A stretch of 32,226 nt of DNA from Chloroflexota bacterium (GTDB taxonomy: Bacteria > Chloroflexota > Limnocylindria > Limnocylindrales > CSP1-4). This document shows positions 18,124 through 27,661 of the stretch, piece after piece. The stretch covers positions 1-32,226 of the forward strand of contig PMNU01000108.1 in NCBI GenBank assembly GCA_003165675.1, written 5' to 3'. The notes under the pieces were generated by a model. It had not been told where the DNA came from. It saw only the letters and a program-made list of their open reading frames with translations, and made no database searches. The translations under genes were made by a program, and so were the position numbers. The first letter of the stretch is position 1. The number at the start of each line of letters is the position of its first letter.

Positions 18124-18786
18124 CTAGATGAACGCCAGGATCGCCAGCAGCGCGGCGGAGGCCGCCATGGCGCACGCCGCCGAAAGCGAGATCCGCCCGC
18201 CGCGGCTCTCCCGAAGGACGGCGGCCAGGCCCGTCAGCACACCCGCCAGGGCCAGGAACGAAAGCCCCAGCACGGCCAGCTGCTCGTGCGAGCTGGCCGC
18301 GTTCGCCAGGTCCACCTGGCGGTTCTGCTCCGTCAGCTCAGTCTGGAGCTGCCGAGTGGTGGCATTCAGCAGGCCGGCGGTGTAAGCGTCCACGGGTTTG
18401 CCGCCCGTGGTATCGGATGTGGCAGTCAGGGCCGCTTGCAGGGCCTCGTAGGCCGACTGCTGCGCCTTGCCGACCGCCATAGCTGCGTCGTCGCCGTTCT
18501 GGAGCCCCGCGATCTCCCGGGCGAGAGCCTGCGCGTCGAGCATGAGGGCGGTCTGCTGCGCACCCAGACCCGAGTCCGTCGCCTGCTCGCTCACCGAGAT
18601 GCGCGCGGACAGGTCCGAAGCGAGGCGGGCGGCGTCGAGATCGGCGCGGGTGGCGGCCTGGCCGGCGTCGATCTGCGCGAACGCGAGGATCGCGGCGAGG
18701 ACGGCGATGACCCCAATGAGTATGGCAAGGACCACATCGAACCGCCGCTCGGCGCGCAGCTCGGCCGCGGAGTCCGGGGCTATCAC
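18124..18786 (-). CDS. Small membrane protein, second of an overlapping pair
   Basis: Not recognised. 220 residues from the GTG at 18786, which overlaps the stop of the upstream gene (GTGA). Topology: short cytoplasmic start, one helix at about 17-37 (DVVLAILIGVIAVLAAILAF), an Ala/Gln/Asp-rich helical segment of about 115 residues likely outside the membrane, then two C-terminal helices (LAVLGLSFLALAGVLTGLAA and SLSAACAMAASAALLAILAF). The helical segment is rich in heptad-like Leu/Ala spacing and could form a coiled coil. Same layout as its neighbour at 18783-19502, although overall sequence similarity is low. A sensor-like or scaffold role is possible. Confidence 0.75.
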   Translation of the reverse strand: MIAPDSAAELRAERRFDVVLAILIGVIAVLAAILAFAQIDAGQAATRADLDAARLASDLSARISVSEQATDSGLGAQQTALMLDAQALAREIAGLQNGDDAAMAVGKAQQSAYEALQAALTATSDTTGGKPVDAYTAGLLNATTRQLQTELTEQNRQVDLANAASSHEQLAVLGLSFLALAGVLTGLAAVLRESRGGRISLSAACAMAASAALLAILAFI

Positions 18787-19502
18787 GCCAGCACCTCCAC
18801 GGCCAGGGCCATCGCCACGCCGCCCGCCAGCGCCAGCGCGCCGAGCCACAGGAACAGTATCCGCCGGCGCTTGAACGCCTGGGCCAGCACGCCAAGGAAG
18901 GCGGCCACGCTTGCCGGCAGCAGGGCGAGTGTCATGACTTCGGCCTTGTGGGCGAGCTTGTCGCCTGAGGCCTGAAGGCCGTCCGGGTCGAGCGCCAGCA
19001 GTTCTGGGTGTTGGGCTCGCAGATCCGCCAGCCGCTTCCCCAGGTCCAGCCCGCCCGATGGCAGGGCGTAGTCGGTTTTGGCGGCGAGGTCCGAGCTCGG
19101 CGAAAGAGCGGTGATCATCTGGGCCTGAACGCTGGCTTCGAGAAGGAGGGTCTGTTTCGTTGCCCCGCTCACTCCCTGGGCGGCGTCCAGAAGCTGCGCC
19201 TGGAGGATCCTCGCCTCGACTATCTGGATGGCGACGGGCAGCTCCGACTGGTACAGGTAGCGCACGTCCTCCATCGCGGCGGCCGAGCGCTTGACCTCCG
19301 TCCGTAGGGCGGACTGCCACGAGTCGGAGGCTGAGCCGGAGACCATGGCGGCTCGAAAGCCGATGGCGGCAGCGACGATCGCGGCAACCGTGAGCAGGAT
19401 GGCGACTCCGCCGTGGCCTCTCTCGTGCGGGACCATGGTGATCTCGGAGACGGCGAGGGCGCGCGACTCCGAGACGGTGCCTTCGATTATCTCCGCGGTC
19501 AT
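18783..19502 (-). CDS. Small membrane protein, first of an overlapping pair
   Basis: Not recognised. 239 residues from the ATG at 19502, with GAGAGGG four to five bases upstream. The frame is open to 20162 inside the MurJ-C39 gene, but the upstream part is antisense-like filler. One helix at about 32-53 (GVAILLTVAAIVAAAIGFRA) is followed by an exported, mainly helical segment of about 130 residues (containing ALRTEVKRSAAAMEDVRYLY) and two C-terminal helices (TLALLPASVAAFLGVLAQAF and FLWLGALALAGGVAMALAVE). Its stop overlaps the start of the next gene by four bases, so the two products are probably made in equal amounts and may form a complex. It follows the MurJ-C39 gene after a 134-base gap. 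Confidence 0.75.
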   Translation of the reverse strand: MTAEIIEGTVSESRALAVSEITMVPHERGHGGVAILLTVAAIVAAAIGFRAAMVSGSASDSWQSALRTEVKRSAAAMEDVRYLYQSELPVAIQIVEARILQAQLLDAAQGVSGATKQTLLLEASVQAQMITALSPSSDLAAKTDYALPSGGLDLGKRLADLRAQHPELLALDPDGLQASGDKLAHKAEVMTLALLPASVAAFLGVLAQAFKRRRILFLWLGALALAGGVAMALAVEVLA

Positions 19503-19636: not shown

Positions 19637-22015
19637 CTACTGGACCGGGATCACGTAGACGTAGTCGCCCTCGCGATTGGCGTAGTACTTGCCCTGGTGC
19701 CAGACCACGTAGTCGGTTCCGAGCGCGCTCACCGGCACGTCCGAGTCGGGCGGCCGGGACCTGGGCCAGATGGTTGAGACGCGTGGATACCACACGTCTT
19801 CGATCCGGAGCGAGAGCACGGTGAAGTTGTCGGTCCGGGCCGGGTCCGCCGTGGCGGTGAAGCCCGAGACGACCCAGGAGTGCCAGCCCTTCCAGACGAT
19901 CAGACCGGCCGGGCGCTCGGTCACTCGTATCTGCTTGGCGACGATGTGGATCGCGTCGGCCATCTTGAGCTTGGCGCCCACCTCGTAGTTGCCGTAGCCG
20001 AGCGAGGTGAGGCCACCCGCCCAGCCCTGCGGGTCGGCGCCGCCATCCTCGCTGCCGGCGATGGACACGGCCAGATCGAAGAGCCTGGCCTGGGTGTCGC
20101 GCGATGTATCCGGCACGTCGCTCATGATGTTCATGGAGGTCTGCATCGCCGCGGGCACGCACCAGGTGTCCTCGATCTCACTGACGAAGTCGCCCGGCTG
20201 GTACAGATCCATCGCGAAGACGCCGGGCGGGCCAGATGGCAGGAGCGTCGGCGTTGCGCTGCCAGACGCTGACGGCTGAGGCAGGAAGGCGGCCACGGAT
20301 GGCGAGGCGGCCTCAGATGGCGAGGCGGCCTCGGACGGCGATTGGTCAACCACCACAACGGGCGGTCGGGTGCCGCCCGCGCGAGCCCACGGAGTCGTTT
20401 GGGGAGCGCCGACGAAGGAGACGTGGCTCAGCGCCTGCGCCCCGGCGAAGACCGTTCCGCCGGCCAGGGCAATTGCCACGACCGCCATCAGGGCGAGCTG
20501 GCCGGCTGGCATCGAGTGGCGATTGGCAGTCCGGACGCCGCCCCAACGATTGCGAACGATGGCCCGAGACCAGCGAGACGTGCCGCCGATGCGGGCCATG
20601 CGGGGCCGAAGGAACAAACCGAGGACGGTCAGGTGGACGATTCGGAAGACGACGTACCCGATTGGAAGCGCGGCCAGTCCCGCGCTTCCAGACAGCAGCG
20701 TGGTCGTGACCACGCCCGCCACGAACCCGGCCGCGACCGCGACCGTCGCCTCGGAGGTGTTGTGAGTTGCATAGATGGCCCGGGCGAAGAGTTCGACGAG
20801 GCTCTCGAATGGGACCGAGATCGCCAGGATGACTAGAACCATGGTCATCCTGGAGGCATCCGTGTCGTCGAACGCGCCGCCCCTGAACAGGCCGGCGATG
20901 AACCCCGCCAGCAGGGCCAGGCCGAGCGCCGCCAGGCTCGAGAAGAACCCGATCGAGATCAGGTTGGTGCGGAAGAGCCTCTTGAAGGCCCGCTTGTCGC
21001 CCGCGGCTGCGGCGGCGGAGAGGGCGGGGAAGGCTGCCAGGGCGAAGGCGACACCGATCACGCTCTCCGCCGTGCTCTGGAAGTCCTGGGCGTATGAGAC
21101 CGACGTGGTCGATCCGGGGGCGAGCGTGGACGCGATCTGGTTGAAGTAGAGCAGCAGCAACGCCACCAGGCCCGAGCTGAGCATCTTCGGCAGCATCAGC
21201 AGCGCGAACTCGCCGACGCCCCTGGTTCGGAGCGCCAGAGACGGCCTCGGACGGAAGGACGTTGCGTGGATGCCGACGAGGCGGACGCCCAGGTGGCCTA
21301 GGGCACCGACCAGGAACCCGATGGCGGCGCCGTATATTCCGAAGACTCCACCCAGCAGCAGCGCACCTGCCGCGAGCCCCGTGTACTGGGCGAACTCGGC
21401 CAGCCCGTACGTCAGGAATCTGCGCTCGGCGATGAGTATCTCGCCCAGGACCATCGAGGCCGTGATCGCCAGCTGGCCCAGGCAGACGATGCGCACCAGG
21501 CCGATGTAGAGGTCGAGCTGGCTGCCCTGGAAGCCGGGCGCGGCGATGGAGGCTATCTGCGGGGCGAAGACGAACAGGATGGCTATCGCAGCCGCCATGA
21601 CGATCAACGCCGCGGTGAGGATGGTGCGGGCGAAGTCCCTGGCCGCCTCTTCGGCCTCGCCCTTGAGGCCTATGAAGAGCGGCAGGAACGGCCCGACGAT
21701 GCCACCGAGAATGAGGAGATTGACCGGGAAAGCGGAGAGGGAGATGGCGTTCCAGAATGCGTCGGTCTCCGGGCCGGCGCCGAAGACGTGCGCGATCACC
21801 TTCTTCGCCAGGAAGGCCGAGCCCGCGTTGATCGCGAACAGCGCGCCCAGGATCACGGCGCCCCTGGGGAGGCCGGCCTGAGCCGCTCTCTTGATTCGCT
21901 CGAAGGCGCCGCGATCCTCACGATCCTCGGGCGGCTCGTCGTTGTAGAGCGCCGCCTCGGCAGCCCCGACTCGGCTCAGCATGCGGCCGCGCGATGTCTC
22001 CTCTGACCAGGGCAA
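19637..22015 (-). CDS. MurJ-like lipid flippase fused to a C39-like cysteine peptidase domain
   Basis: 792 residues. Residues about 50-500 are a MurJ/MviN-type MOP-superfamily flippase with many hydrophobic helices (near its start AKKVIAHVFGAGPETDAFWN, then GGIVGPFLPLF), the family that moves lipid II across the membrane. One more helix (about 515-535) and a Pro/Ser/Ala linker with repeated SPSEAA lead to an exported domain of about 185 residues. That domain has the papain-like C39_2 pattern: Cys619 in DTWCVPAAMQTSMN, His712 in KGWHSWVVSGF and an Asp in IEDVWYPRVS. The frame is uninterrupted. The start is a TTG at 22015 with GGAGG nine bases upstream; an ATG at 21982 is the alternative. The peptidase domain would face the cell wall. 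Whether it cleaves is unproven. Confidence 0.88.
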   Translation of the reverse strand: MPWSEETSRGRMLSRVGAAEAALYNDEPPEDREDRGAFERIKRAAQAGLPRGAVILGALFAINAGSAFLAKKVIAHVFGAGPETDAFWNAISLSAFPVNLLILGGIVGPFLPLFIGLKGEAEEAARDFARTILTAALIVMAAAIAILFVFAPQIASIAAPGFQGSQLDLYIGLVRIVCLGQLAITASMVLGEILIAERRFLTYGLAEFAQYTGLAAGALLLGGVFGIYGAAIGFLVGALGHLGVRLVGIHATSFRPRPSLALRTRGVGEFALLMLPKMLSSGLVALLLLYFNQIASTLAPGSTTSVSYAQDFQSTAESVIGVAFALAAFPALSAAAAAGDKRAFKRLFRTNLISIGFFSSLAALGLALLAGFIAGLFRGGAFDDTDASRMTMVLVILAISVPFESLVELFARAIYATHNTSEATVAVAAGFVAGVVTTTLLSGSAGLAALPIGYVVFRIVHLTVLGLFLRPRMARIGGTSRWSRAIVRNRWGGVRTANRHSMPAGQLALMAVVAIALAGGTVFAGAQALSHVSFVGAPQTTPWARAGGTRPPVVVVDQSPSEAASPSEAASPSVAAFLPQPSASGSATPTLLPSGPPGVFAMDLYQPGDFVSEIEDTWCVPAAMQTSMNIMSDVPDTSRDTQARLFDLAVSIAGSEDGGADPQGWAGGLTSLGYGNYEVGAKLKMADAIHIVAKQIRVTERPAGLIVWKGWHSWVVSGFTATADPARTDNFTVLSLRIEDVWYPRVSTIWPRSRPPDSDVPVSALGTDYVVWHQGKYYANREGDYVYVIPVQ
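20298..20341 (-). repeat. 18-base tandem repeat in the MurJ-C39 linker
   Basis: About 2.4 copies of an 18-base unit (20298-20315, 20316-20333, partial to 20341) encode the hexapeptide SPSEAA repeated in the linker between the last membrane helix and the peptidase domain. The copies differ at only a few positions, so linker length could vary between strains. Confidence 0.75.
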
Positions 22016-22232
22016 CCGGGGGATCCTCCGTGGCTTCTCGGCCGCGCGACCGTGGCTTCGAGCGGAGCCATCTTAGACATCCAGCGACGGACGCAGCCGG
22101 GGCGTTGTGGTGCGAATGCGCCTGTGGCGAACGCGGGGGAGGCATCCGCTAACAACAATCTGGATGGTCCGGCCGGGGAATGTGCCCTGAACCGCGAGAC
22201 TCGACGGGGGCGTGGCGGCGTCCCGCCTCCTC

Positions 22233-23156
22233 CTACGATCCTCCCGCGGCCAGACCGGCCGCGAACAACAATGCGAAGACCAGCGTCAGCCTGGCCGTGC
22301 CGCGGAGGACGGCATTGAGCTGGCGGGGATCGCCGTCCGCCCGAACGGCACGCCACATCGGCAGGGCGATTGGCATGGCGAGGAGCGGCAGGAGAGTCCA
22401 CGGCCCGACCGCCACGGATGCGCCGCCCCCGCGTGCTAGCACGAGGCCAACCGGAACGGCCCAGGCCGCAACCAGGCAGCCGAGGTACTCGGCCCGGGCG
22501 AAGCCCTCTCCAAACGTGACAGCGAGCGTCCGCTTGCCGGCCGCTCGGTCCGTGGTTGCGTCTCGCAGGTTATTCACCACGAGGATTGCCGTGGTCAGAG
22601 TGCCGACCGGGATGGCGGCGAGAAGGTACAGGAGCTCGATCCGGCCGGACTGCAGCTCCGCGGTGCCGGCGACGGCGACCAGCCCGAAGAAGACGAACAC
22701 GAAGACCTCGCCGAGGCCGTGGTAGCCGTAGGGAAACGGACCTCCGGTGTAGGCAAGCGCGGCCAGGACCGCAGCCGCGCCCAGTGCCACGAGCACGGGC
22801 CCGCCGATGGTCGCGAGCCAGACGCCGACGATTCCCGCGATGATGAGCACCGCGGCGATGGCGGCCCCGAGCTGGCGGATGGTGACCAGTCCCGCCGCCG
22901 CGACTCGGGTCGGCCCAAGGCGGTCGGGCGTATCGGCGCCGCGCCTGAAGTCGGAGAGATCGTTGGCGAGATTGGCCGCAACCTGGAGGAGAAGCGCGAC
23001 GGCCACGCAGCCGACCGCGGTGTCGAGCCGGAAAGCCGCGCCGGTAGCCCGGGCTGCCCCGAGCCCAACTATGACGCCGCTGACGGACGCCGGCAGCGTC
23101 GCCGGCCGGGCCGCCAGCAGCCACGTCCGCCCCCACCGCGCGAGGAACGACCTCAT
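22233..23156 (-). CDS. menA: 1,4-dihydroxy-2-naphthoate polyprenyltransferase
   Basis: Attaches the isoprenoid tail to DHNA in menaquinone synthesis; integral membrane enzyme of the UbiA superfamily. 307 residues from the ATG at 23156 (MRSFLARWGRTWLLAARPAT), which matches the family's usual N terminus. A GTG at 23198 would add 14 residues without family likeness; neither start has a strong ribosome binding site. The first Asp-rich motif is NLANDLSDFRRGADTPDR, followed by LGPTR, and the second is VVNNLRDATTDRAAGKRTLA. Eight or nine hydrophobic helices are visible. Menaquinone is the expected acceptor for GlpABC elsewhere in the window. Confidence 0.92.
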   Translation of the reverse strand: MRSFLARWGRTWLLAARPATLPASVSGVIVGLGAARATGAAFRLDTAVGCVAVALLLQVAANLANDLSDFRRGADTPDRLGPTRVAAAGLVTIRQLGAAIAAVLIIAGIVGVWLATIGGPVLVALGAAAVLAALAYTGGPFPYGYHGLGEVFVFVFFGLVAVAGTAELQSGRIELLYLLAAIPVGTLTTAILVVNNLRDATTDRAAGKRTLAVTFGEGFARAEYLGCLVAAWAVPVGLVLARGGGASVAVGPWTLLPLLAMPIALPMWRAVRADGDPRQLNAVLRGTARLTLVFALLFAAGLAAGGS

Positions 23157-23437
23157 TGGCGCCGCGGGAAGAGCGAAAGCCCCGGTGCCCGATTCCACGG
23201 GGACGCCGGCCCGTCGGAGCGGACTTTACGGGTCGCGACGATCGACGCGCCGACCGGGACCTGGAGGAACACGGACACGAAGCACTCCCCAAAGGCGGCC
23301 GACCACGGGCCGGTGTCGCGCTCAGAGTAGCGCCGCTATGGGCCAGCCGCCCGGCTCCTGGCCGGCCGCCGCGATGTGCCGGGCCGGCCGGCTCCGGCGA
23401 GAGCACTCGCGCGGCGCCGTCCCGGATCACGATCCTG

Positions 23438-24538
23438 TCAGGGCAATGGACGCCAGGCTCTGCCGAGCAGGAGCGCCAGCGCCGCGAACAGCGCACCCAG
23501 GCCCACGAACCCGAAGCTGATCTCGGTCACGTGATGTTCCATGATGAGGTTGACCGGCAGGTTCTGGAAGACGCTATCGAGCTGGCCGGCGCTCTCGGCC
23601 GGATGGTAGATGCCGCCGGTCAGGTCGGCGATCTGCTTCAGCGTAGCTTCGTCGATGCCTCGCGGGAAGTTGCCCCCGCCTCCTCCGCCGCCGCCCCCAT
23701 ATCCGCCGGCCGCCCCGCCGGTCGAGCCGCCGGCCGCCACGCCGGCTCCCGGTTCGCGACCCACGAACTGGGGCCGGCACGTTGGGCTCATGGTCCCGCC
23801 GTTCGCGGTGCCGAAGCCGATGGTATAGACGCGGACGCCCCGATCCGCCGCCTGCTGGGCGGCGTCCAGCGGCGGCGTGCCCGTGTTGTTAGCGCCGTCG
23901 GTCAGCAGGACAATGATGTCGGGGGCGTAGTCGCCCTTGGGCACCGGCGCCGGTGCGGTTCCGGTCGTCGAGTCGGTCTGGCTTCTGGCCACGGACGGGT
24001 CGACCTGGGAGATGGCGTCGATCGAGGCGAGGATGCCGTCGCCGATGCCGGTCCTTCGTCCGGTCGCGAGGCTGTGGAGCGCGGAGAGTAGCGCCGACTG
24101 ATCGTTGGTGGGCGACTGGACCACTTCCGCGAAGCTGCTGAACGCGACGATGCCGATTCGCGTCGACGAAGCCTGGCTCTTGATGAAGGAGGCGGCCGCG
24201 GCTTCGGCCGCTTCGAGCCGGCTTGGCGGTATGTCGGAGGAGCACATGCTGCCCGATACGTCGATCGTCAGGATGATGGTGGTCTGGTTCGTGGGCACGG
24301 CCAGGATGACCACCGGCCGCGCCATGGCGACGACGACCGCACCCAGGGCCGCCACGAAGAGCGCGAAGGGCAGGTGGCGCCGGAACCGGGAGGGCCCGGG
24401 AGCGGCCTCCCGCACGAGGGCCAGGCTCGAATAACGGACGCCCGATCGACGCTGCCGCCGCAGGCTCCAGATGTAGACGGCCACGAGCGCCGGCAGCAAT
24501 ACCAGCAGGGCGAGCAAACTCGACCACAGGAAGTCCAT
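23438..24538 (-). CDS. VWA-domain membrane protein (BatA/BatB-like), second copy
   Basis: 366 residues from the ATG at 24538. Two N-terminal helices (about 5-24 and 57-77), a von Willebrand A domain with MIDAS residues D93-x-S95-x-S97 (TIDVSGSM), the Thr in GRRTGIGDGI and the Asp in VLLTDGANN, then one C-terminal helix. An insert near residues 255-290 is extremely Gly-rich (GGYGGGGGGGGGNFP) and carries a Cys in SPTCRPQF; Cys99 follows the MIDAS motif. These features are absent from its tandem neighbour. The MIDAS sits at identical residue numbers in both, pointing to duplication. Such proteins accompany MoxR ATPases and DUF58 proteins and are thought to assist complex assembly or metal-dependent binding outside the membrane. 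Confidence 0.9.
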   Translation of the reverse strand: MDFLWSSLLALLVLLPALVAVYIWSLRRQRRSGVRYSSLALVREAAPGPSRFRRHLPFALFVAALGAVVVAMARPVVILAVPTNQTTIILTIDVSGSMCSSDIPPSRLEAAEAAAASFIKSQASSTRIGIVAFSSFAEVVQSPTNDQSALLSALHSLATGRRTGIGDGILASIDAISQVDPSVARSQTDSTTGTAPAPVPKGDYAPDIIVLLTDGANNTGTPPLDAAQQAADRGVRVYTIGFGTANGGTMSPTCRPQFVGREPGAGVAAGGSTGGAAGGYGGGGGGGGGNFPRGIDEATLKQIADLTGGIYHPAESAGQLDSVFQNLPVNLIMEHHVTEISFGFVGLGALFAALALLLGRAWRPLP

Positions 24539-24579
24539 CTATCGTCGCCCTTCCAGGTACCTGAGACACCGACGCCAGG

Positions 24580-25599
24580 TCATGGCAGCCGACCCAGCCA
24601 GGCGAGCGAGGTCAGGCCGCCCGCGATCAGCAATACCAGGCTCAGGCCGGCGAAGAGCGCGGTAATCTCCGTCATCTGGGGTTGGATAACGAGCTGTGTG
24701 TCGAGGTTGTCGTAGATCGAGCGGAGCTGCTGCGAGTCTGCGGCGGAGTAGTAGGAGCCGCCCGTGACCTGGGAGATTCCCTGGAGCGTTGCCTGGTCGA
24801 GCTGGGTGTGAACCTGGAAGCCACTGACGGTCACGCTCGTGCCGGCCGAGCTTCCGACCCCCACGGTGTAGATCCGAACTCCCCGGTCGGCGGCGGTCTG
24901 TGCGGCGGCGAGCGGGTCGGGCGACTCGTTGTTCTCGCCGTCGCTGAGCAGGACGATGACGGCCGAGTCGTGCGTACCGGAAGCCACGGGCGTCGGCGTC
25001 GCCGTCGGCGAGGGCGCGGGCGACTGGTTGGAGTAGTAGTCGTTGGCCCAGGGCCCCGCTTCCGCCTGCGCGATCACGTTGAGCGAGGCGATGATGCCCT
25101 GACCGAGCGAGGTCCCGCGTTGCGGCGCCAGCCGGTCGATGGCAGCGTCCACCGCGGCCTGATCGTCTGTGGGCATCTGAATCGAGACGCCCGAGTCGCT
25201 GAAGGCCACGACCCCGACGGTGACACCCGACGGCTGGCGCGCCACGAAGTCCTTTGCCGCGACCCTGGCCGCTTCCATTCGAGTGGGCGTCAGATCGGTC
25301 GCGGCCATGCTGGCGGAAACGTCGAAGGCGAGGATGACGGTGCCCTCTTCTCGAGGCAGGGCCACGACGGCCTGTGGCCGGCCCAGCGCGACGGACATTA
25401 CGACCAGGCCGCATAGCATCAGCGCCGGCGGAATGCGCCTGCGCAGACCAGCCAGCCGGCGTGAACGCCCTTGAGCTGGCTCCGGTCCGCCAAAGGTGGG
25501 TAGAAGTCGGCGACGCCGCCGATCGATGATCCAATACAACAGCACGCCGATCGGGATCAGCGCCAGCGACAGCAGCATGGGCGGCCAGATGAAGGTCAT
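24580..25599 (-). CDS. VWA-domain membrane protein (BatA/BatB-like), first copy
   Basis: 339 residues from the ATG at 25599, three bases after the DUF58 stop. N-terminal helices at about 6-25 and 57-72, VWA domain with MIDAS D93-x-S95-x-S97 (FDVSASM), Thr in PQRGTSLGQGI and Asp in VLLSDGENN, and a C-terminal helix (ALFAGLSLVLLIAGGLTSLA). A Ser/Pro/Thr-rich insert (about residues 185-205) lies in the loop that is Gly-rich in no part of this copy. It follows moxR and the DUF58 gene in one tightly packed operon and precedes the paralogous copy by 41 bases. Confidence 0.92.
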   Translation of the reverse strand: MTFIWPPMLLSLALIPIGVLLYWIIDRRRRRLLPTFGGPEPAQGRSRRLAGLRRRIPPALMLCGLVVMSVALGRPQAVVALPREEGTVILAFDVSASMAATDLTPTRMEAARVAAKDFVARQPSGVTVGVVAFSDSGVSIQMPTDDQAAVDAAIDRLAPQRGTSLGQGIIASLNVIAQAEAGPWANDYYSNQSPAPSPTATPTPVASGTHDSAVIVLLSDGENNESPDPLAAAQTAADRGVRIYTVGVGSSAGTSVTVSGFQVHTQLDQATLQGISQVTGGSYYSAADSQQLRSIYDNLDTQLVIQPQMTEITALFAGLSLVLLIAGGLTSLAWLGRLP

Positions 25600-25602
25600 T
25601 GG

Positions 25603-26670
25603 CTACATCCGCCGCCGGCGGCGGATCGTCGCCATCCGAACGATGGCGCGGACCAGGTCGTCCTCGGTCGAGAGCGACAGCGCCTCGACCCTCGATCGTT
25701 TGAACGCGCCATTCACTTCCGCTTCGCGTCGGCTCGCCGCCGCCTCGAAACGGCGGCGGAAGCCGGCGTCATGGGTGTCGACATAGAGCCGCTCGCCGGT
25801 CTCGGCATCTTCCATGATCACCGGCCCGACGTCGGGCAGCTCGACCTCGCGCGGGTCGAGCAGGCGGACGGCGACCACCTCGTGCCGTCGATTCAGCAGG
25901 TTCAGCGGCCGTTCCCATCCGGGAACGCTGATGAAGTCGGATACGAGGAAGATCAAGGAGCGGCGCTTGATGACGCGCTGCCCTGCAGTGAGCAACGGCT
26001 TCAGGTCCGTGAATGGCGCGTTCGGCAAGCGCGGCTGCCGAAGCAGGTCGTCGATCAGGCGGAGGACCTGGTCTCGCCCGCCTCGCGCCGGGATCGTCCG
26101 CTCGACGGCGCCGCCGTAGAAGATCGCACCTACGCGGTTGCCGCGTCGGGTCAGCAACCGAGCGAGCGTCGCCACGAAATCGGTCAGGACGGTTCGCTTC
26201 AGGCGCTCGGTATCCACGCTGCCGAAGTCGACCGAGGGACTGAGGTCGAGGAGGAACCAGGCGGTGATCTCGCGGTCCTCGACGTACTCGCGGACGTATG
26301 GCGTGTTCATCCGGGCGGTGACGTTCCAGTCGATGGAGCGAACGTCGTCCCCGGGCTCGTATTCGCGCAGGTCCACCAGATCCACGCCGTTGCCGCGGAA
26401 AAGGCTCCGGTAGTCGCCCTGCAGGATCCCGTCGAGCCTGCGGACGACCTGCCAGTCGAGGCGCTCGAGGACGCGTTCCGCGACGGTCGAGGATCGCCCA
26501 GAAGCGGAGCCGGATCGCGCCGGAGTCGAGGTGAGACCCGCGGGAGGTGAGGCGGGCGTCTCTGGGGCGAAGAGTGGCCTCACCGAGGCGTGCACAAGCC
26601 GCGCCGGTCCCGCGTTGCCGAGATCCGGCGACGGGGCCCAGACGATGCCGTCAGGCGCCGGTTCGGGCAT
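25603..26670 (-). CDS. DUF58 domain protein of the MoxR operon
   Basis: 355 residues from the ATG at 26670, with GGGAG about nine bases upstream; the start lies 20 bases inside the end of moxR. The DUF58 signature is clear: FRGNGVDLVDLREYEPGDD followed by VRSIDWNVTARMNTPYVREY, then a VWA-like half with FLLDLSPSVDFGS and LIFLVSDFISVPGW. About 70 Pro/Ser-rich residues precede the conserved part. No membrane helix is visible, so this is a cytosolic member. In other bacteria DUF58 proteins work with MoxR ATPases and VWA proteins; the precise function is unknown. Overlaps suggest coupled translation with moxR and the VWA genes. Confidence 0.92.
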   Translation of the reverse strand: MPEPAPDGIVWAPSPDLGNAGPARLVHASVRPLFAPETPASPPAGLTSTPARSGSASGRSSTVAERVLERLDWQVVRRLDGILQGDYRSLFRGNGVDLVDLREYEPGDDVRSIDWNVTARMNTPYVREYVEDREITAWFLLDLSPSVDFGSVDTERLKRTVLTDFVATLARLLTRRGNRVGAIFYGGAVERTIPARGGRDQVLRLIDDLLRQPRLPNAPFTDLKPLLTAGQRVIKRRSLIFLVSDFISVPGWERPLNLLNRRHEVVAVRLLDPREVELPDVGPVIMEDAETGERLYVDTHDAGFRRRFEAAASRREAEVNGAFKRSRVEALSLSTEDDLVRAIVRMATIRRRRRM

Positions 26671-27661
26671 GCGAACGCTCCCGGAGCGGCACCACCGGCA
26701 CCGGAACCCGCTTGAGGACCGTGGCCAGCACATCGTCCGCGGTTACGTTGTCCGACAGGGCCTCGAACGACAGGACGAGGCGGTGGCGCATCACGTCGCG
26801 GGCCATGTCGAGCACGTCCTGCGGCAGCGCGTAATCCCGGCCGCGGACGAAGGCGAGCGCCCGAGCCGTGAGGATCAGGTTGATTGAAGCGCGGGGGCTG
26901 GCCCCGTACGTGATGTAGCGCTCCAGTTCCGGCATGCCGTGCGATCCGGGCGAGCGCGTGGCCGTCGCGAGGCGCACGGCGTATTCCATCAGCGCCGGAT
27001 CCACGTACACGCGATCGGCCTCCCGCTGCAACTCGATCAGGCCCTCCGTGGAGAGGACCTCTTGCACAGTTTCCAGCGGGCCCGTCATTCGTTCGACGAT
27101 GACGAACTCCTCGTTTGCGCTTGGATATCCGATCAGCACCTTTAGCATGAAGCGGTCGACCTGGGCCTCGGGCAGCGCGTACGTCCCTTCGGTTTCGATC
27201 GGGTTCTGTGTCGCGAGGACGAGGAACGGGTCCGGCACCTTGTGAGTCTCGTGTCCGATCGTGACCTGCCGCTCCTGCATAACCTCGAGAAGCGCGCTTT
27301 GGACCTTGGCCGGCGCCCTGTTGATCTCGTCCGCGAGCAGGAGGTTGGTGAACACCGGACCGAGCGAGGTGTTGAACTCGCCGGTCTTCTGGTTGTAGAT
27401 CCGCGTGCCGATCAGGTCGGCCGGGACGAGGTCGGGCGTGAACTGGATCCGTCTGAACTCGCCGCCGATCGCCCCGGCAAGCGTCTTGATCGCCAGCGTC
27501 TTGGCGAGCCCGGGCACGCCCTCGACCAGGAGATGACCCCTCGCGAGGAGTGCCACCGCCATCTGCTCCAGGAGGTGATCCTGGCCGACGATCACCTTCT
27601 TGACCTCGTACAGCACGCGTTCCATCGGCAGCGTGGGTGTTGCGTCGGCCTGTTCGTGCAC
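26651..27661 (-). CDS. MoxR-family AAA+ ATPase
   Basis: 336 residues from the GTG at 27661, behind a perfect AGGAGG six bases upstream. The frame is open to 28192, but that stretch is antisense to the protease gene. Walker A is EGVPGLAKT (about residues 47-55), Walker B LLLADEINRAP, the sensor region LATQNPIETEGTYALPEAQVDRF, and the lid RYITYGASPRASINLILTARA. MoxR ATPases act as chaperones for assembly or activation of partner proteins, usually with the DUF58 and VWA proteins encoded directly after them, as here. The protease gene upstream ends 47 bases before the start, so it may belong to the same transcript. Confidence 0.94.
   Translation of the reverse strand: MHEQADATPTLPMERVLYEVKKVIVGQDHLLEQMAVALLARGHLLVEGVPGLAKTLAIKTLAGAIGGEFRRIQFTPDLVPADLIGTRIYNQKTGEFNTSLGPVFTNLLLADEINRAPAKVQSALLEVMQERQVTIGHETHKVPDPFLVLATQNPIETEGTYALPEAQVDRFMLKVLIGYPSANEEFVIVERMTGPLETVQEVLSTEGLIELQREADRVYVDPALMEYAVRLATATRSPGSHGMPELERYITYGASPRASINLILTARALAFVRGRDYALPQDVLDMARDVMRHRLVLSFEALSDNVTADDVLATVLKRVPVPVVPLRERSHARTGA

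Follow-up and report, generated by a model that had tools for sequence, protein, structure and literature searches.

The window, a 32,226-nucleotide stretch of DNA from a Chloroflexota bacterium, contains a gene encoding a MurJ-like flippase and a papain-like cysteine domain in a single polypeptide. By sequence comparison the flippase half is a distinct MurJ paralogue and not the canonical MurJ. For the whole protein we favor, at about even confidence, a reading in which a flippase-like transporter of lipid-linked or amphipathic cargo other than lipid II would be joined to a cysteine hydrolase or transferase on the outer face, and it is from the comparisons given below that we infer transport, catalysis, location and a shared pathway.

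The fusion gene and its occurrence

The ORF reading gave a single 792-residue frame on the minus strand (22015..19640, stop codon 19639-19637) with zero interruptions. The initial annotation, which had one continuous frame joining a MurJ/MviN-type flippase to a C39-like domain, was borne out and its coordinates were right. The TTG start is kept in the window and nine relatives.

Table 1 Features of the fusion gene, in window positions
Feature	Position	Strand	Basis or remark
Fusion gene, 792 aa	19637..22015	minus	TTG start at 22015, stop 19637-19639
Shine-Dalgarno GGAGG	22025..22029	minus	9 nt upstream of TTG; kept in the window and nine relatives
MurJ-like 12-helix MOP flippase half, about aa 51-476	20588..21865	minus	PF03023, AlphaFold2 helices, Foldseek
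Basic loop, aa 477-503, predicted cytoplasmic	20504..20587	minus	6 Lys/Arg and 0 Asp/Glu over aa 476-503; positive-inside rule
Helix 13, aa 504-530 (hydrophobic core 507-525), predicted to cross to the outside	20423..20503	minus	AlphaFold2 helix
Ser/Pro/Ala low-complexity linker, aa 531-598	20219..20422	minus	pLDDT <50 over much of the linker
Papain-like (C39-like) cysteine domain, aa 599-792; Glu613 (oxyanion position), Cys619, His712, Asp740	19640..20218	minus	AlphaFold2, Foldseek, conservation

Of 20 congeners, 18 carry intact full-length homologues of the fusion (47-71% identical), and this recurrence argues that the frame did not arise by chance. The frame of a 19th congener (G004, contig C114; L022/L049) is broken by an ambiguous base, which is translated as X and for which an assembly fault is the most likely cause, and the fusion is absent from one congener, the genome of which is 73% complete. 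Overall, the fusion recurs in about 25 species of a single family, spread over at least five genera. The 24 fusions of our alignment, drawn from congener homologues and named genome contigs, form a single clade in the flippase tree (100/100 support). All named records are Chloroflexota MAGs except one labeled Steroidobacteraceae; one named assembly with two loci is labeled Candidatus Limnocylindrales. The Steroidobacteraceae-labeled locus (L127) lies well inside Chloroflexota clades in both trees, a placement suggesting that it is probably a mis-binned contig and, less likely, a transfer. An assembly or frame artefact is the least credible account of the fusion itself and can be given very little weight: the named relatives are MAGs and the genome of the window consists of 166 contigs (82% complete), but about 25 independent assemblies have the same frame, its start conserved.

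Architecture of the fused protein

PF03023 (MurJ) matched residues 74-476 of the protein at 1.7e-49 in Pfam. The full-length AlphaFold2 model (pLDDT 81.9) had 12 core helices, counted by hand from the helix list of the model, followed by a separate helix (residues 504-530), a disordered linker and a papain-like domain. In Foldseek searches of the PDB the flippase half matched MurJ (7waw, TMt 0.80) and WzxE (9g9p, TMt 0.83), and the two six-helix lobes of the MurJ/Wzx/MATE fold that mark the MOP exporter superfamily were found by both Foldseek and AlphaFold2. This half is well conserved, with many invariant glycines, prolines and charged residues among 19 aligned fusions. Residue 277 of helix 7 is Lys or Arg in all 60 copies compared (24 fused, 16 encoded convergently with an enzyme gene and 20 canonical), which is compatible with an anionic cargo. 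Given that the loop preceding helix 13 contains six Lys or Arg residues and no acidic residue, the helix count and the positive-inside rule predict a cytoplasmic loop with the enzyme outside the cell. Stand-alone C39-like proteins have an N-terminal signal-anchor equivalent to helix 13 and hence the fusion would preserve their topology.

The AlphaFold2 model of the C-terminal domain, made with 75 homologues, had a mean pLDDT of 94.3, and ten PDB matches were obtained with Foldseek at E <= 0.001, pointing to the papain-like fold. The top matches were phytochelatin synthase Alr0975 (3.7e-4), UfSP and CdiA-CT, with staphopain and the PCAT1 C39 exporter lower. The scores were modest (TM about 0.5) and thus place the fold but not the family. 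In the secondary structure of the model, Cys619 starts the first core helix, whereas His712 starts and Asp740 ends core strands, and as modeled the three residues occupy the catalytic-triad places of the papain fold. The Cys, His and Asp residues are invariant in the fused (24/24) and convergent (20/20) copies, and among 31 stand-alone C39-like proteins the Cys is replaced by Ser in a single copy (L081:847-1476). Classical papain-like members have Gln at the oxyanion position. The corresponding residue, six before the Cys, is Glu in 24/24 fusions and Glu or Gln elsewhere, with Glu also present in many stand-alone copies having an intact triad. A profile aligned the Glu613-Cys619 stretch with the FVTQVNQAYCG sequence of Alr0975, at a weak score that by itself is not significant.

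These results support the exported C39-like domain with Cys, His and Asp residues put forward by the initial annotation. Two findings that it had named as decisive against the proposal, failure of the fold and loss of the Cys and His, did not appear, as a papain-like fold was predicted and both Cys619 and His712 are invariant in 24/24 fusions. The separate Pfam searches it recommended gave a mixed outcome: the flippase half matched its family, but the C-terminal half of the window protein alone gave no PF13529 (C39_2) match even at E <= 1, although PF13529 matched 30 of the 75 homologues of the domain (best 1.5e-6). A sub-threshold Pfam match of this half to DUF3222 was set aside as chance.

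Relation to canonical MurJ

The search for a stand-alone murJ suggested by the initial annotation was positive, as the same genome carries a separate canonical copy on another contig (C107); a murG-like gene is also present elsewhere in the genome. A tree split the 40 fused and convergent copies from 20 canonical copies of the lineage plus E. coli MurJ with 100/100 support. The NCBI equivalog model for MurJ, TIGR01695, has a cut-off of 235.55. The fused copy scored 158.6 bits over profile positions 22-444 of 506 and so fell below it, and the other murJ of the genome scored 286.5 over positions 7-502. One convergent copy was barely at the cut-off (236).

MurJ has 14 helices, of which helices 13-14 form a groove proposed to accommodate the lipid tail, and Arg18, Arg24 and Arg270 are essential within its cavity (PMC9973255, PMC4790310). 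The fusion resembles MurJ/MviN (PF03023, TIGR01695) in its Pfam match, its 12-helix core fold and an invariant equivalent of Asp39. Unlike MurJ, it lacks helices 13-14, the 12 core helices being followed by one helix leading into the enzyme, and it has an added helix and a domain predicted to be external. The window protein has Ala64, Ala70 and Asp at the sites of E. coli MurJ Arg18, Arg24 and Arg270, respectively, and is without Arg18, Arg52, Arg270 and Glu273. We rejected loss of Arg52, Arg270 and Glu273 as a fusion-specific trait because the canonical MurJ of the lineage is also without them. Hence, Arg270 does not discriminate and we used Arg18 and, in part, Arg24. Arg18 is found in 20/20 canonical, 0/24 fused and 0/16 convergent copies, and the values for Arg24 are 20/20, 10/24 and 16/16, such that Arg24 is lost in most fused copies. 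Export of lipid II by the fused flippase, as the initial annotation had it, is therefore unsupported: the protein is a diverged paralogue that fails TIGR01695 and is missing helices 13-14 and Arg18.

Two further observations concern the canonical proteins of the lineage (L001, L128-L145). These have an invariant Arg in helix 7, equivalent to residue 277 of the window protein, which from the alignment is perhaps a relocated substrate-binding charge. One genome has two canonical murJ genes in tandem (L133; G023 contig C19, 82700-86900).

Linkage of flippase and enzyme, and a proposed mechanism

We surveyed 177 genomes of the class, in which the MurJ-like paralogue was recognized by at least 42% identity to the query versus 29-36% for canonical MurJ proteins. 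The paralogue was found in 51/177 genomes, all 51 of which also encode the C39-like family, and in 0/98 genomes without that family (Fisher 2e-24 on genome counts, uncorrected for shared ancestry). Fused or same-strand arrangements account for 25 of the 51 (one broken by an ambiguous base), convergent neighbors for 25 and a contig edge for one. The matched regions of the convergent pairs, which lie tail-to-tail, are -13 to 571 nt apart. The initial annotation held that separate genes in related genomes would speak against the proposal. Separate genes do occur in other genera, yet the parts are adjacent there (25 convergent, one contig edge), which strengthens the functional link. The fused domains fall in one enzyme subclade and the convergent partners in another, and both coexist in some genomes. 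With partners taken from two enzyme subclades, coupling takes two forms, neither of which need be derived from the other. The enzyme family occurs without a MurJ-like partner in 28/79 genomes, and three stand-alone enzyme copies (L067, L072, L075) are nested within the fused clade; a check of these for hidden MurJ remnants revealed none. Hence, the enzyme also has roles apart from the flippase. Across the phylum, sampled evenly with 400 genomes, the paralogue was restricted to this class, bar one match of 36%. On this pattern of co-occurrence the paralogue and the enzyme very probably work together on an envelope substrate.

The neighborhoods of the fused and convergent loci, read by eye, held no clue to the substrate; the genes looked housekeeping-like (SerA, RarA-like, glutamate decarboxylase, transglutaminase-like, ECF-type transporter parts). 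Two small membrane-protein genes lie directly downstream of the fusion on the minus strand (18783-19304 and 18124-18885). They gave no NCBIfam match and are conserved beside several fused loci, with both present at L040, L050 and L051. Upstream on the same strand (22233-26733) are menA, two BatA/BatB-type VWA genes and a gene that, by eye, resembles members of the DUF58 family. A second C39-like paralogue, about 35% identical and stand-alone in congeners (L084-L098), has a well-conserved neighborhood, in which genes for a Fur-like regulator and for ECF-type transporters were recognized by eye, and possibly a separate role.

In the mechanism we propose, the 12-helix MOP domain would be a MurJ paralogue that has left the lipid II role and supplies the outer leaflet with a different cargo, one that is lipid-linked or amphipathic (and probably anionic). 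Helix 13 and the flexible linker would position the outward-facing papain-like enzyme at the exit, where, by thiol chemistry of Cys619, His712 and Asp740, it might cut, deamidate or transfer the cargo or a peptide that the cargo bears. A narrower form of the proposal, to which we hold only tentatively, is that the flippase delivers a lipid-linked (glyco)peptide distinct from lipid II that its own outer papain-like enzyme processes on arrival, all in one polypeptide.

Other readings must be weighed against transport coupled to catalysis. The membrane half might transport nothing and instead anchor or dock, through its many membrane passes, a protease of the outer face whose task is to mature exported proteins. 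Such a role would fit the fused copies that have lost substrate arginines (Arg24 remains in 10/24), as well as the single anchor helix that suffices for the enzyme in genomes without the flippase. The latter argument cuts both ways, however, since if one helix is enough a multi-pass anchor is superfluous, and conservation of the flippase half, with Lys/Arg277 in all copies, also weighs against it; we consider an anchor unlikely, although it deserves a hearing. We regard it as decidedly improbable that the protein is a genuine lipid II flippase, the second of its genome, with a wall hydrolase coupled to it. Both Pfam and the structure search give MurJ as the best match, and the convergent copies retain Arg24 (16/16), one of them reaching the TIGR01695 cut-off, but the fused copy falls short of that cut-off, Arg18 is found in 0/40 fused and convergent copies, the lipid-tail groove helices are missing and a canonical copy is present elsewhere in the genome.

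Similarly small is the chance that the C39-like domain has no catalytic activity and acts only in binding or gating. The Glu in place of Gln at the oxyanion position of all fusions and the Ser in place of Cys in one stand-alone paralogue could be so explained, but retention of the triad throughout the fused (24/24) and convergent (20/20) copies argues for activity, and the same Glu accompanies intact triads in many stand-alone proteins.

Among known systems, the Wzx/WzxE flippases of lipid-linked oligosaccharides share the 12 helices and the fold (TMt 0.83), with both ends of the core predicted to be cytoplasmic, but the fusion is closer to MurJ in sequence searches and no glycan gene cluster was seen around it. 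The papain-like clan CA family Peptidase_C39_2 (PF13529) shares the fold and the Cys-His-Asp order, but the window domain falls below its model and has Glu at the oxyanion position. Genes of the C39_2 family can occur near transporter genes (JBC survey, PMC10318531). Alr0975 (C83) is the best PDB fold match and its Cys and Gln align with Cys619 and Glu613 at a weak score, but identity is about 13% at a TM of about 0.5, and we know of no transporter fusion of this phytochelatin synthase. The PCAT proteins (C39 PF03412 fused to ABC exporters) likewise unite an exporter and a peptidase of the C39 type in one covalent unit. Their peptidase domain is cytoplasmic and N-terminal and removes double-glycine leaders during translocation by an ABC exporter, whereas in the fusion a MOP flippase comes first and the enzyme follows at the C-terminal end, on the predicted outer side. 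Neither a MurJ-C39 fusion nor any MOP flippase bearing a papain-like enzyme on its outer side was found in the literature searched, most subscription journals lying outside it.

The fusion thus presents a MurJ paralogue that has apparently been freed from transporting lipid II and that, whether fused or adjacent, is always linked to a single family of papain-like enzymes. As this orphan flippase is tied to an enzyme partner, the question of its substrate becomes directly testable via the enzyme. Among MOP proteins it would be the equivalent of the peptidase-containing ABC exporters, but with its enzyme placed outside. If delivery and processing of a lipid-linked (glyco)peptide proves true, it would constitute a previously undescribed envelope system having transport and maturation in one polypeptide.
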